NCBI GenBank assembly: GCA_022225965.2 | Contig: JAKJXP020000043.1 | Location: 310,001-374,000 of the forward strand | Source of the DNA: Diatrype stigma | Lineage: Eukaryota > Ascomycota > Sordariomycetes > Xylariales > Diatrypaceae | Direction: 5' to 3' | DNA: 64,000 nt | Part shown: piece by piece, positions 19,701 through 25,309 of the stretch | Layout of the letters: each line of letters begins with the position of its first letter | Position numbering within the stretch: the stretch's first letter is position 1 | Notes under the pieces: generated by a model | Seen by the model: the letters and a program-made list of their open reading frames with translations, nothing else | Told to the model about the DNA's origin: nothing | Database searches by the model: none | Position numbers and translations under genes: made by a program

Positions 19701-20192
19701 ATGGTGTGCCCACGTACGCTCTCGCTGTTCAATGGCGCATTCGAGCTCCTCAACATAACTCAACTGCAAAACGGGACTCCGATTCCAGATACTACCACGG
19801 GCCGACACCCCAACGGTATGATTGTGTATAGCACCGGTGGCTACGTCTCCGTCCTGATCCACGCGACGGAGCCCGAATGGAGACCCACCAACCTGACGGT
19901 ACTGGACCGGGGCAGCCAGTTCGACGCGCAGTGGGCCCTCGTCGGCCAGCACTCGGCGGCCTATTCCGGGCCGTTCAGTTTCAACGAGTCGCTGCTCCTC
20001 AACGATACCCATGGCGAGATCATGCACGGCCCGCTCATCGCGGCGAGCTTGCCCTCCAACATCGGCAGTATTCAGCACCGCAACTTCTCCTTTTCCGAAG
20101 ACGGGGAGTATCTGAACCTAGTCGGCGACTTGGGCCAGGGAATCATCGACATGCTCTGGTGGAAAAGACTGAAGGACAACAGCGACATATAA
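19701..20192 (+). CDS. Lipocalin-like domain protein
   Basis: This is a single-exon protein of 163 residues. The pattern (FELLNITQ..NGTPI, then G..P.GMIVYSTGGYVSVLI, then a central YSGPF segment and a late L.L..D...) matches the small lipocalin-like beta-barrel family seen in fungi and bacteria (PF13924 type), where a typical member starts with a conserved G-x-W. Here the W position is Phe (AFELLN). In fungi, such proteins are often encoded near secondary-metabolism genes and may bind or isomerise small hydrophobic compounds; that role is not shown here. No signal peptide is evident. The ATG at 19701 is the first in frame. A short upstream exon cannot be excluded. Confidence 0.7.
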   Translation: MVCPRTLSLFNGAFELLNITQLQNGTPIPDTTTGRHPNGMIVYSTGGYVSVLIHATEPEWRPTNLTVLDRGSQFDAQWALVGQHSAAYSGPFSFNESLLLNDTHGEIMHGPLIAASLPSNIGSIQHRNFSFSEDGEYLNLVGDLGQGIIDMLWWKRLKDNSDI

Positions 20193-20760: not shown

Positions 20761-21334
20761 TCGCCCCTTTATCGGCAGACTGCACCCAGGCCACGAACCT
20801 GGCCGCGTTAGCGTACATGTCAGATGAGCTCCTGCTAGGGGTGGTTATTTTTGCAATTCCAGAGGCAGCTGGCCCGGGAAATCGGAACGTGGCTATGGCA
20901 GCCACTCTTAATCATCACCTCTAGTTTCATGACCCCAGTGTTAAGGTGGATCAGTGGATGGTAGGCGAGGGAGGCATCGTGGGGTGCAGACCGGCGTGTA
21001 GTTATCAACCAGAGTGTTTGAGATCAGAAGAGCGGGCGGCTGGTGATGACTTGTGTGCAGGGAGCTCTGGTCCGGTTGAAGGACTGACCTACACTCGCGG
21101 CAAGGGTTTTCAGGAGGCAGTCCAGCCTTTCAAAGGCGATGGAAAGGTAGACCGAGAAGGGATTTGCAGCGCGCTGCCAAGCTGCCCACCCACTCCTGGC
21201 CAGACACCGAAATAACAAGGCAGTGAATTCAATGACAGATGCCAACTGTTTGATTTCATGTATTACCACTCGTTTACCGTACTCCGATTCCTCGTGCTAA
21301 CAAAAATCTCTTCACTCATGCTTGGCGACGAAGG

Positions 21335-21340
21335 ACCTTG
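21335..21340 (-). promoter_or_regulatory. Candidate zinc-response site CAAGGT
   Basis: ACCTTG on the plus strand, 286 bp upstream of the small Cys/His protein start. CARGGT is the core described for the Aspergillus zinc regulator ZafA. The context AGGACCTTGA is repeated exactly before the ZIP gene at 22898-22907. Short sites like this occur by chance. Confidence 0.35.
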
Positions 21341-21625
21341 ATGGTCTGAAGTGACTGGCCAAGAAGACCGGCCAAAGCACCAGTAAAGGATAACTTCTTG
21401 GCTTCACATTGCACTCTCGTGTAGGATGGTGAGTTCAATCATTCTCGAGCTCCCATCTCTCTCGTGAGTCTCCACTATGATAGATGGCAATCAATATAAG
21501 AAGAGCCCTTCCGACGGCGACTTGGACACATAGTGCTACTCTTCGCTATCAATCGGCTCCTCTGAATCTGTTGCCATATATCCTAAATCTATCTTGGAAG
21601 AGCTACACCAACGGAACTGATCAAT

Positions 21626-22196
21626 ATGAAGACTTTCGGTCCAGCCATTACTGCTCTGATTGCTGCTGCACTTGCAGGGGCCCAGTCATTACCCCCTTCG
21701 CCAACCGCATCTGTTGGTTGCGAACCACATGTAAGTACCGCAAACATTCCACAGCCGACTTTATACGTACTAACTCTTAAATCTTGGTAGGGAGATCACT
21801 GGTAAGATCATGCACTGTCCGAACTCTATTCTCGACCTAACAAGGTTTTCAAACAGGCACTGCGATGGTCCGGCCACCACGACGTCTGTAGCCGTAGTGA
21901 CGAGCACCTCGGATACTACCGCACCCACAAGCTCAAGCTCCTACGACCATAGCACGGAAGAGGAGACGGGATCGGAATCCATAGCACCAAGCCCAACGGA
22001 GTCAATCGGCTGTGAGCCGCATGGCGATCACTGGCACTGCGATGGTCCCGCAGTGACGAGCTCCGGGTCTGTCACTACAACCCCCACCACCGAGGCTACT
22101 TCGTCGATATCGTCGGCTCTTGGTGCTAGTGACTTTGGTTTGGATATGGCTGCACTTGCAGGAGGTGTGATGGCCGCCGTCGGCTTTGCCATGTAA
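21626..22196 (+). CDS. Small GPI-type protein with two Cys/His metal-binding-like repeats
   Basis: Exons 21626-21730, 21791-21801 and 21857-22196 give 151 residues. Residues 1-20 are a signal peptide. The ten-residue motif CEPHGDHWHC occurs at 32-41 and again in exon 3, each time inside G-CEPHGDHWHC-DGPA. A Ser/Thr-rich linker separates and follows the copies, and the hydrophobic C-terminus (about the last 20 residues) fits a GPI-attachment signal. The middle exon is only 11 nt; the second motif copy, uncut in exon 3, has the same residues and confirms the splice. The density of Cys and His suggests extracellular zinc or copper binding (inference). The ZIP transporter 1.07 kb downstream on the same strand carries related motifs. 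The protein could be a cell-wall metal buffer or donor to that transporter. Confidence 0.75.
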
Positions 22197-22685
22197 CACC
22201 GCAACTGCGCATTTCCCTCCGATCCTCTCTGGAAACTACTGGGGAGTCACCTAACATAGTCTACTGTTGCGTGTTTGAAATACTATCGCGTTCAATTTGG
22301 CGCTCAACTGTATATTTCCTGAATGTGCAATAACTACCCAATGCCTTCTCTATAGGAATGGGCGATATCCGTTCCTGCTTAGGCTCTCAATATATCTGAT
22401 TCTGTATCGTATCTGCCGTAACCAACGATCATACCCCTCGAATTGCTGTAAGCTCTGATGAGCCTCATGATTGCCTCTTTAAACGTAGATATGCATCGTT
22501 GAATCACGTTACGAACGTTTGAATTGATTACGATGCGACCTTATCGTCTGAAACACTATCGATCCATAGAACGTCGTTACATCGGCTAGATGAATTCCAT
22601 ATTGCTGCGCTGTTATGCTCCAAAGAAGCGGGTAGATCAATGGAGCCGATGTCACGTAGAGTTACGATGTAATTGGTAGGGCCAT

Positions 22686-22691
22686 CAAGGT
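22686..22691 (+). promoter_or_regulatory. Candidate zinc-response site CAAGGT
   Basis: Lies 577 bp before the ZIP start codon and matches the CARGGT core reported for the fungal zinc regulator. On its own this could be a chance match. Confidence 0.3.
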
Positions 22692-22900
22692 TCTCGAATT
22701 CTGCCTATTATAAGGACGAATAATGTACGCATCTCCATGCTTCGTAGCGATGTCCCTGCAATGGGATGCACCAAACTTCCTCCGAATAACGACCTCGGTG
22801 AATGAGCGTCTGACGGAGTGAATAACGGAGACAAAACGTATAAAGTGACCAGAGGTGCCTAACTGCCAAGTGCCTGGCTACTTGGCGTGTGTCAACGAGG

Positions 22901-22906
22901 ACCTTG
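22901..22906 (-). promoter_or_regulatory. Candidate zinc-response site CAAGGT
   Basis: ACCTTG on the plus strand, 362 bp before the ZIP start. The surrounding ten bases AGGACCTTGA (22898-22907) are identical to those before the small Cys/His gene. Confidence 0.4.
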
Positions 22907-23262
22907 AGGGACGCCAGGACGGTACCTGCTTAGGTATTATTCGGAAAAGGCCAAAACCACATAATGAGTTGGATCAGTAACTGCCACAGTCAGTCAGGAA
23001 CCTCTCTGGCCATTTCTCCCACACAGGGAAGTTTCGACTGCGGAAAAAAGAAAAGTCTAAGAAATCCTCCCAGTCTCAAGACCACTCAGACTTGAGCCTC
23101 CGCCACTACATCAACAACCACCACAACAACAATACCACTCCCTCTTCCACTGGCAATCCTTAGCCAGTTGGTCCATCTGACATCCCCACCATTCCCGCAC
23201 TGCTCATCTCATCAACTTGCACCTTCACAACAACGAACTGAACTGCTGCAACAACGATCACG

Positions 23263-25309
23263 ATGGGTCGAATTGGCGGTCTTTCTTTCGCCTTCGCCCT
23301 GGTGGCCTGGTTTCTCATCCAGGCCATTTCGGGCGTCTCGGCTTCCAACCCTTCTCTGAGCGTCAGACAGCACGCCATCACCGCAGGCCCTACCGCTACT
23401 GTTGTCGCTGCTGCTGCCGCAGCAGAGAGCTTCACTGCTGTTTCCGAGTGCCATCTTCATGGCGCTGATGCGTACGCTCATCCCCCCCCCCCCCCCCCCC
23501 CAGTCTAGAGATCTCTCTCGGAAGTTGTTGTCATCTGAGCCGGCATTAACGAATCCAACAGATACTGCATGTTTGGCACCGAGGAATACTCTGTCTCCAT
23601 CCCGGTTACCGCTACTGCCACTGGTGAACTTCCCGCTACTTTTACTGAGTGCCACCACCATGGCCAGGATTCGTGAGTCTCTCCATCCATACATACACGC
23701 TCTGTTTCTTCCTCTATCGCGGGTTTTGGCCTCTGTGCAGTGATTCTAACCATTCTTTTCTAGTTACTGCGTGGCTCCCGACGGCTCTGATGTCGAGATC
23801 CTCGGCATGCCGCCTGCTGCTGATGGTTCCAGCGGAGAAGCCACGCCTAGCAGCACTGGAGAGTCCGGCGCCCACAGCGAGGGCCAGCACTGCCATTTTC
23901 ACGCGGGAGTTGAGTAAGTTGCACGTTCTCTTTTTTCCCTTCTCTTTATTTGAGTAGGAGCTCTGACTGACTAACGAAAACTTGACAGGCATTGTGTGGG
24001 AGGGTCTGCTGGTTCCGAGAAAAGTTCCCCAGCCAAATGCACGAAGCAAGAGCGAGACTACAACATCGGTCTCCGTATTGGCCTGCTGTTTGTCATGTTT
24101 GTGACCGGCCTCATTGGTAAGTCGGACAGCGAGAAACACAACGAACATCATGGGAATAACCTAGAAACCGTGAGCTCGGCTAACTTCATGACAAGGTGCT
24201 GCTGGTCCGATCCTTCTGGCTACCGTACTGCCGCCCAAGTTCAATATCGTCTTCAGTATTGTCAAGCAATTCGGTACTGGTGTGATCATCTCTACCGCAT
24301 TCGTCCACGTAAGTATTGCTACTTTCCTTCAACCAAGGAAGAACATCTGCTAACACAACTTGTCCCAAAGCTCTTCACCCATGCAACTCTCATGTTGACC
24401 AACGAATGCCTCGGCGAGTCAAAGTACGAGGCTACGACTGCCGCTATCCTCATGGCTGGGTTGTTCATCTCTTTCTTGATCGATTACTTCACCCACCGCG
24501 CTGCCAAGGGCTGGAGCATGAAAGGTGGATACAATGATGAAGTCGTCGGAGTCATGATCCTCGAGGCGGGTATCATTTTCCACTCTGTCCGTAAGTGTTC
24601 CTTCTTTCAATGCTTTCCTGATATCATATTTGGTCTTCTATATATCGTTCTCCCTGACCCTCCGCTCACTAATCATCTCCGAACAGTAATTGGTATCACG
24701 GTTGTGGTTGCCGGAGACTCCTACTTCGTCACGCTCTTCGTCGTCATCGTGTTCCACCAGATGTTCGAGGGCATCGCGCTTGGTAGCCGAATTGCGGCCA
24801 TCGGCGCGCACAAGCGCAACATTGAGGTTAGCCGTGGTCCTATCGGCAGTACCCACACCACATCCTCGCATCTCAAGGGCGATGATTCGGTTACTGGAGG
24901 CAGCAGCAGTGGCGTCACCCCTATTGCCACCAGCGATGGCGCCTTGTCAGAGTCAGAGCCTACCCCCACCGCTACCCCTGCCGCTACCCCCGCCTCGAAG
25001 TCCCTGTCCAAAGTGAAGAAGATCATCATGGCTCTCGCGTTCGCCATCACCACCCCCATCGGCATGGCTATCGGTATCGGCGTTCTGCACTCATTCAACG
25101 GCAACGACCCCACTACTCTAAAGGCTATCGGTACCCTCGACGCGCTCTCGGCTGGCATCCTTGTCTGGGTTGGTGTCGTGGAGATGTGGGCCGGTGACTG
25201 GATGTTTGGTGGCGAGCTGGCCAATGCCTCGCCCCTGATCACCGCCCTGGCTCTTGTCGGGTTCATCGCGGGCATGGCCCTGATGAGCTTCCTCGGCAAG
25301 TGGGCCTAA
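23263..25309 (+). CDS. ZIP-family zinc/metal transporter with three N-terminal Cys/His motifs
   Basis: Seven exons (23263-23471, 23562-23672, 23764-23913, 23989-24116, 24196-24308, 24371-24590, 24687-25309) give 517 residues. A signal or first membrane segment (about 1-27) is followed by an N-terminal region with motifs at 63-72 (CHLHGADAYC), 100-109 (CHHHGQDSYC) and 150-159 (CHFHAGVEHC). The ZIP core begins near 180. HSVLIG at 308-313 and HQMFEG at 334-339 are the metal-binding signatures of the fourth and fifth segments, and a Ser/Thr/Pro-rich loop of about 75 residues separates segments five and six. ZIP proteins move zinc or iron into the cytosol. The extra motifs probably gather metal outside the membrane. 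Introns 1-3 each cut one motif at the same place. Two CAAGGT sites upstream suggest zinc-dependent control (inference). Confidence 0.9.
23482..23502 (+). repeat. Poly-C tract in ZIP intron 1
   Basis: About 20 consecutive cytosines within the first intron of the ZIP gene. The length is likely to vary between strains or by sequencing error. It is intronic, so the frame is unaffected. Confidence 0.8.

Follow-up and report, generated by a model that had tools for sequence, protein, structure and literature searches.

A GPI-type wall protein and a ZIP transporter sharing one Cys/His hairpin: a candidate zinc-acquisition pair in Diatrype stigma

What does a small cell wall protein do beside a zinc transporter with which it shares a ten-residue Cys/His motif? 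The question is raised by a locus of the wood-inhabiting ascomycete Diatrype stigma (Sordariomycetes, Xylariales) within a stretch of 64,000 nucleotides (GenBank assembly GCA_022225965.2, contig JAKJXP020000043.1, positions 310,001 to 374,000, forward strand), hereafter the window, whose first letter is position 1 of all coordinates given without a contig. An earlier note had placed a glycosylphosphatidylinositol (GPI)-type protein (gene 1) and a ZIP transporter (gene 2) at 21626..25309, coordinates that are exact for the spliced models of both genes, and had read the pair as an extracellular metal-capture module, an interpretation that our analysis partly supports. We consider it probable that the two genes constitute an extracellular zinc-acquisition module for zinc starvation, in which a wall-anchored hairpin protein gathers zinc for the adjacent ZIP; binding of zinc by the GPI-type protein, its hand-over to the ZIP and induction by zinc starvation are what we infer from gene content, linkage, predicted fold and promoter sites. 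Papers are cited by PMC number, and statements resting on them are limited to the parts of those papers that were available.

The gene pair and its linkage in relatives

The genes and their motifs are arranged as follows.

21626..22196, + strand: gene 1, GPI-type wall protein of 151 amino acids; spliced model, homologs over much of its length
21626-21730, 21791-21801, 21857-22196, + strand: the three exons of gene 1, spliced model
21719..21863, + strand: gene 1 motif 1, CEPHGDHWHC (residues 32-41), split by two introns, one of phase 0 after motif residue 4 and one of phase 2 in the codon of motif residue 8
22011..22040, + strand: gene 1 motif 2, CEPHGDHWHC (residues 91-100), intron-free
23263..25309, + strand: gene 2, ZrfC/Zrt1-type ZIP zinc transporter of 517 amino acids; model, identity to entry P0121, PF02535
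23263-23471, 23562-23672, 23764-23913, 23989-24116, 24196-24308, 24371-24590, 24687-25309, + strand: the seven exons of gene 2, model
23449..23568, + strand: ZIP motif 1, CHLHGADAYC (residues 63-72), with intron 23472-23561 in the residue 8 codon, phase 2
23650..23770, + strand: ZIP motif 2, CHHHGQDSYC (residues 100-109), with intron 23673-23763 in the residue 8 codon, phase 2
23891..23995, + strand: ZIP motif 3, CHFHAGVEHC (residues 150-159), with intron 23914-23988 in the residue 8 codon, phase 2

The two motifs that had been described in the GPI-type protein and the three in the ZIP outside its membrane core were all located in the spliced models, those of the ZIP being N-terminal to the core. 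As judged by eye from the translation, the product of gene 1 has a signal-peptide-like start, a Ser/Thr-rich body and a hydrophobic GPI-type tail, and it carries two copies of the repeat PSPT(A/E)S(V/I)GCEPHGDHWHCDGPA. Its model, which includes an exon of 11 nucleotides, is based on splice signals and homology. A protein search yielded 389 homologs at E<=1 among 1042 candidates, and of these 120 were listed; none of the 120 is a D. stigma entry, and gene 1, with its 11-nucleotide exon, may be missing from the public annotation of this species. Where named, the listed homologs belong to Pezizomycotina (Xylariales, Hypocreales, Eurotiales, Onygenales, Helotiales, Orbilia, lichens and Geopyxis), and because they span medical and agricultural lineages, lichens and saprobes, the protein appears to be a general Pezizomycotina trait and no speciality of pathogens. 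Full-length homologs extend down to E 4e-82, and PF28209.1 is annotated on listed GPI homologs, the top matches included; this Pfam family is too new for the profile library that we used, and gene 1 is tied to it through the annotation of its homologs. No mention of PF28209 was found in the open literature, and a PDB sequence search with gene 1 returned two chance-level human leukocyte antigen (HLA) matches only (best E 0.62).

Gene 2 is ZrfC/Zrt1-like, a label taken from its N-terminal motif and its database name. The model is 100% identical over 517 amino acids to P0121, the NCBI entry for a Diatrype stigma 'high-affinity Zn(2+) transporter zrt1', it scores 120.5 bits against PF02535 (cut-off 35.1), and a Foldseek search with its AlphaFold model finds BbZIP structures (E 1.6e-5). 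In this fold search the BbZIP entries appeared as expected and the N-terminal hairpins found no match; a phmmer search of PDB sequences with the ZIP returned nothing at E<=1. The features of the ZrfC/Zrt1 group found at zincophore loci, i.e. a long extracellular N-terminus with Cys/His motifs including CHFHAGVEHC, are all present in gene 2, and CHFHAGVEHC itself occurs in 160 of the 166 listed ZIP homologs. Motif 3 has the same letters as the published zinc site of Candida albicans Zrt1, for which Zn(II) binding has been measured on the peptide (PMC8773511, PMC9780748). In ZrfC, the alkaline zinc importer of Aspergillus fumigatus, the role in the host is reported to depend on the extracellular N-terminus, which has four putative motifs for zinc binding (PMC4343018). 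As a detail of the gene model, intron 1 (23472-23561) starts with GTACGC and has a long C run just past the donor; the public annotation, whose protein is identical, uses the same splice sites.

Linkage in relatives was checked by comparing the lists of GPI and ZIP homologs by organism, with locus tags and contig size as evidence; a further ZIP search, with an Orbilia query, listed 120 matches, nearly all from Sordariomycetes and Orbiliomycetes. By script, both homologs lie on contigs of equal size in 26 of 28 species, 19 of the 26 on contigs below 0.5 Mb, and the addition by eye of the non-pathogenic alkaliphile Sodiomyces alkalinus (same size), Fusarium vanettenii (different size) and Orbilia oligospora (different strains) brings the count to 27 of 31. 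The locus-tag numbers are consecutive in 9 of the 15 pairs with a common prefix, namely in four Monosporascus, two Fusarium, Pestalotiopsis fici, Phialemonium thermophilum and Verticillium albo-atrum. Judged by tags and contig sizes, linkage of the pair is conserved in Sordariomycetes, and the synteny on which the earlier proposal hinged is found in relatives. Among the ZIP homologs, P0252 of Cercophora sp. LCS_1 (737 amino acids) carries an extra domain, PF14856, which we take to be the Hce2 effector-type domain; this protein is either a fusion or a gene-model error.

A probable common ten-residue unit in two proteins

The likeness of the motifs extends to the gene structure, since in four of the five motifs (the three of the ZIP and motif 1 of gene 1) a phase-2 intron interrupts the codon of motif residue 8. 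This four-way coincidence was never reproduced in 200,000 random intron placements, and any sharing between the two genes arose in 0.3%. The exon letters around the four intron sites are not alike, so that a shared insertion signal is no obvious cause. Composition shuffles (100,000) produced at least one motif in 0.006% of cases for gene 1 and in 0.044% for ZIP residues 1-190, and at least three motifs in residues 1-190 of the ZIP in none; in a six-frame translation of the window a single unspliced match to the motif was found, the genuine one at 22011.

The predicted structures agree. In the AlphaFold model of the ZIP each motif forms a beta-hairpin (strands 59-66/69-74, 96-103/106-110 and 149-153/156-160) with a two-residue turn at motif residues 5-6, and the first two hairpin blocks have per-residue confidence (pLDDT) values of 86-92. 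The AlphaFold model of P0012, a homolog of gene 1, has a helix at either end and shows a like hairpin in three units (33-35/38-40 and its repeats), again with the turn at motif residues 5-6 and with blocks at 78-84. Because the intron codon and phase are common to both genes and the AlphaFold hairpin is common to both proteins, the motif is most likely one homologous unit, and the likeness first noticed by letters is real and points to descent over chance. That the genes are chance neighbours with a chance motif likeness is scarcely credible: both motifs are indeed short, but the shared intron position, the shared hairpin, the linkage in many relatives and the promoter sites described below all stand against it; for the linkage chance is already refuted, for the motif nearly so.

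If the unit is shared, its conserved residues may indicate what it does. The strand register of the hairpin would place residues 2, 4, 7 and 9 on one face and residues 1, 3, 8 and 10 on the other. Among 346 C-x8-C decamers in the 120 listed GPI homologs, whose sequences are related so that the counts are not independent events, residues 2, 4, 7 and 9 are all H/E/D in 323 of the 346, while residues 3 and 8 are H/E/D in 0 of 346 each; residue 4 is His in all 346, residue 7 is His in 344, and residue 9 is His in 334 and Asp in 12. In the ZIP N-termini, which hold 689 C-x8-C decamers, residue 2 is His in 634 and residue 4 in 618. The ZIP and GPI hairpins have the fold in common, not the complete ligand set.

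The same residues bear on a reading in which the hairpins are structural, with a disulfide and His/Trp residues serving wall binding, adhesion or surface masking, and in which the likeness to the ZIP reflects old common descent with no present shared function. Such a role would suit the position of Cys1 and Cys10 at the hairpin ends in the AlphaFold models, paired cysteines of secreted proteins being usually oxidised, as well as the nature of the gene 1 product, a typical low-complexity GPI wall protein. It sits poorly with the retention of H/E/D at residues 2, 4, 7 and 9 in nearly all decamers and never at 3 and 8, with a residue 9 that changes solely from His to Asp, and with promoter sites and a zinc-importer linkage that point to zinc, and we regard it as improbable. 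Of the sequence between the hairpins, it may be added that runs of at least six D/E/H residues occur in 78 of the 120 listed GPI homologs and are absent from the window's own protein (region 22041-22196).

Promoter sites and the metal

Zinc regulation was approached with a weight matrix for ZafA, built from 71 published A. fumigatus sites (PMC6070888, Table 3) and run over both strands of the window. The three best sites of the 64 kb all lie in the promoters of the two genes.

22897..22911, - strand: ZafA-type site TCCCTCAAGGTCCTC, upstream of the ZIP, 18.65 bits, best in the window
21331..21345, - strand: ZafA-type site ACCATCAAGGTCCTT, upstream of gene 1, 16.92 bits, second best
22681..22695, + strand: ZafA-type site GCCATCAAGGTTCTC, upstream of the ZIP, 16.59 bits, third best

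The fourth-best site scores 12.5 bits, and the median of the published sites is 14.5. Two random regions of the sizes of these promoters both contained a site at least as good as that of gene 1 in 0.075% of draws, a threshold set post hoc. Both promoters also contain GCCARG words, presumably the PacC/Rim101-type consensus, at the following positions, for which no strand is assigned.

21176..21402: five GCCARG words upstream of gene 1; as many or more are found in 0.5% of 600-bp windows of the 64 kb
22865..22918: four clustered GCCARG words upstream of the ZIP; as many or more are found in 7.8% of 1066-bp windows

Within the whole genome (49.0 Mb, 224 contigs), the 15-mer TCCCTCAAGGTCCTC has exactly two copies, each upstream of a ZIP gene. 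The second of these genes, at 86430-87250 of contig C49, has the 15-mer about 500 bp upstream of its first in-frame ATG and TCCCTCAAGGTTCTC further upstream, and its promoter suggests that it is likely a zinc-regulated importer of the other type. Co-regulation of the pair by zinc, on which the earlier note had also staked its proposal, is favoured at the level of promoter sites only, with strong ZafA-type sites in front of both genes.

These sites are relevant to two further readings. In the first, the GPI-type protein would be a wall buffer that evens out the zinc supply or denies zinc to competitors, without docking on the ZIP, and the genes would be neighbours through co-regulation. For this the zinc-response sites in both promoters would suffice, and the acidic and His-rich stretches between the hairpins of many homologs (the runs of at least six D/E/H in 78 of 120 listed) resemble a low-affinity sponge; the buffer leaves without explanation, however, why one structural unit, its intron position included, is common to binder and transporter and why the linkage has persisted. 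We hold it to be unlikely, and still the first of the alternatives to keep in mind. In the second, the metal would be another one (Cu, Ni or Mn), or the pair would protect from metal excess. His/Cys hairpins bind Cu(II) and Ni(II) too, as published peptides of this kind do for Ni(II) (PMC9780748), but the neighbouring transporter belongs to the ZrfC/Zrt1 zinc type, and the promoter sites fit ZafA, the zinc-starvation activator, which indicates zinc scarcity and not excess, and we give this second alternative very little weight.

The proposed module and known zinc systems

We propose the following working of a zinc-acquisition module. Gene 1 would encode a GPI-anchored wall protein that presents small Cys-closed beta-hairpins (SVGCEPHGDHWHCDGP type) as beads on flexible Ser/Thr-rich linkers. 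Residues 2, 4, 7 and 9 of each hairpin (Glu/His, His, His and His) would hold Zn(II) on one face, with Cys1, Pro3, Trp8 and Cys10 bracing the hairpin from the opposite face. The extracellular N-terminus of the gene 2 ZIP would bear three hairpins of that unit, the last of which, CHFHAGVEHC, adjoins the membrane core, and zinc caught in the wall would move, by exchange of ligands, from the hairpins of the GPI protein to those of the ZIP and from there into the cell. A more specific version, which we offer tentatively, is a zinc relay tethered to the wall. A single Cys-closed His hairpin would have been multiplied by exon duplication and placed both in the ZIP arm and in the GPI protein next to it; donor and acceptor would then be copies of one unit, along which zinc walks from wall to pore.

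Several observations weigh against this picture, beginning with the linkage. Contig sizes disagree in 4 of the 31 species; in Biscogniauxia mediterranea and O. oligospora different strains were compared, and for Rosellinia necatrix and F. vanettenii we have no explanation. Tag numbers are far apart in 6 of the 15 pairs, all of them JGI DRAFT ids, which we assume to be catalogue numbers without positional meaning. The match of the introns is incomplete, gene 1 motif 2 being without one and motif 1 having a second intron, of phase 0, that is absent from the ZIP motifs. The third hairpin block of the ZIP model reaches a pLDDT of just 58-69, and the GPI model, which is that of the homolog P0012, has a predicted template-modelling score (pTM) of 0.24 and a mean pLDDT of 64, with linkers mostly below 60. 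H/E/D is found at residue 7 in 282 and at residue 9 in 171 of the 689 ZIP decamers, and Cys1 and Cys10 may form a plain disulfide. In the promoters, the bare CAAGGT core shows no enrichment upstream of gene 1, as many being present in 36% of 1-kb windows, and only a mild one between the genes (9%), and with up to one mismatch allowed the 15-mer TCCCTCAAGGTCCTC has 7 genomic copies, vs 11 for the reversed control. In A. fumigatus, finally, the recorded neighbour of zrfC is aspf2 (PMC6070888).

A linked binder and ZIP is a known arrangement; the type of binder found here is one of which we found no description in the literature. In Pra1-Zrt1 of C. albicans and Aspf2-ZrfC of A. fumigatus, as at our locus, the gene for an extracellular protein lies beside that of a ZrfC/Zrt1-type ZIP, with ZafA/Zap1-type sites (PMC3386192, PMC5751234, PMC6070888), and C-H-x-H...H-C segments in the transporter N-terminus have a related segment in the tail of Pra1/Aspf2 (PMC9780748). 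The Zrt1 peptide CHFHAGVEHC is reported to have a higher affinity for Zn(II) than the Pra1 site, so that zinc can move from zincophore to transporter (PMC8773511, PMC9780748). Gene 2 shares with ZrfC/Zrt1 ZIPs the PF02535 core and the long extracellular N-terminus with zinc-binding motifs, CHFHAGVEHC among them (PMC4343018), and differs in having three motifs vs the four reported in ZrfC and a neighbour other than Pra1/Aspf2. Pra1 and Aspf2 are soluble and contain a deuterolysin-like HRXXH domain. Gene 1 lacks HRXXH and encodes a small GPI-type protein built of repeats, and the genes stand in tandem here and are divergent in aspf2-zrfC.

The claim that the binder is unrelated to Pra1/Aspf2 needs to be narrowed. 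It holds for the HRXXH domain (PF13933), which a Pfam scan up to E=10 did not find in gene 1; the contrast is incomplete in that the C-terminal tails of Pra1/Aspf2 hold the C-H-x-H...H-C segments quoted as SHCHTHADGEVHC and PNCHTHEGGQLHCT (PMC9780748). Both segments, as quoted there, look like the ZIP hairpin with a turn longer by one or two residues. The Cys/His hairpin unit may be older than both the Pra1/Aspf2 and the gene 1 type of system. A search of the D. stigma genome for an HRXXH (Pra1/Aspf2) gene gave 0 matches at E<=10, a negative without a working control, since the control genomes (14 prokaryotes) gave no match either. Synteny of PRA1 and ZRT1 and repeated loss of PRA1, the losers including Neurospora crassa and Yarrowia, have been published (PMC5751234, PMC3386192). 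A relay of this kind, if real, would represent a second type of fungal zinc capture, one that does without Pra1, and would be among the alternative uptake systems whose existence has long been suspected in fungi without Pra1; a conserved, linked GPI protein that bears zinc boxes and shares the transporter's unit is a concrete candidate for such a system. Should the unit be shared by descent, both ends of the metal relay, donor and acceptor, would derive from one small exon, which would be unusual.

The closest functional parallel lies outside fungi, in the streptococcal pair PhtD-AdcAII. PhtD displays repeated HxxHxH at the cell surface, and its gene is found with that for AdcAII, which forms the extracellular side of a zinc transporter; three His and a Glu of PhtD hold the Zn, and its transfer to AdcAII has been shown (PMC3842936). 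A closer likeness, with Pht triads of the form PHGDHYH, was dropped, as neither HGDH nor PHGD occurs in the text of that paper. The HGDHWH of gene 1 also fits a PhtD-like HxxHxH, with a Glu at motif residue 2. There is no detectable homology between the two (the Strep_his_triad profile gives 7.1 bits on gene 1, with a cut-off of 27), and the bacterial system is of the ATP-binding cassette type and not a ZIP; the likeness is likely convergence.

In the open literature, with subscription papers outside our scope, we found no description of the gene 1 family or of the GPI-ZIP pair, and the papers found to contain the motif letters all concern CHFHAGVEHC. AFUA_4G09600, which we took to be a GPI protein near zrfC/aspf2, was considered as the Aspergillus counterpart of gene 1 and then dropped. 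It is CweA, and at 848 amino acids far too long (PMC7426169). Also considered, for its name, was gzbA (AFUA_8G02450), which is strongly ZafA-induced; there is no sequence evidence that it belongs to the gene 1 family, and it was dropped as well.

A genome pattern search revealed a second GPI-like gene of D. stigma, which encodes 308 amino acids at 31299-32362 of contig C79 (1800-2863 of locus L021) and contains CTLDSDGDHWDC and three CSPH(V/I)DHWHCPPG(I/V)VAP repeats; it has no Pfam match. Its intron splits the Trp codon of its first motif, of the DHW(D)C type, in phase 1, i.e. one base off. Upstream of this gene are ZafA-type sites of 14.0 and 12.8 bits, but others of 15.1 and 13.2 bits lie within its coding region, which leaves the zinc-site evidence at C79 weak. 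An HGDHWHC pattern match on C125 was set aside as chance, its reading frame being broken by stops. The TGYCAY... pattern for unspliced CHxH motifs has two matches in the genome, and a Verticillium GPI homolog used as query gave weak matches on C36, C6, C47, C46 and C20. In the window itself, an open reading frame with a lipocalin-like domain (PF13924, 75 bits) lies upstream of gene 1, at 19701-20192.

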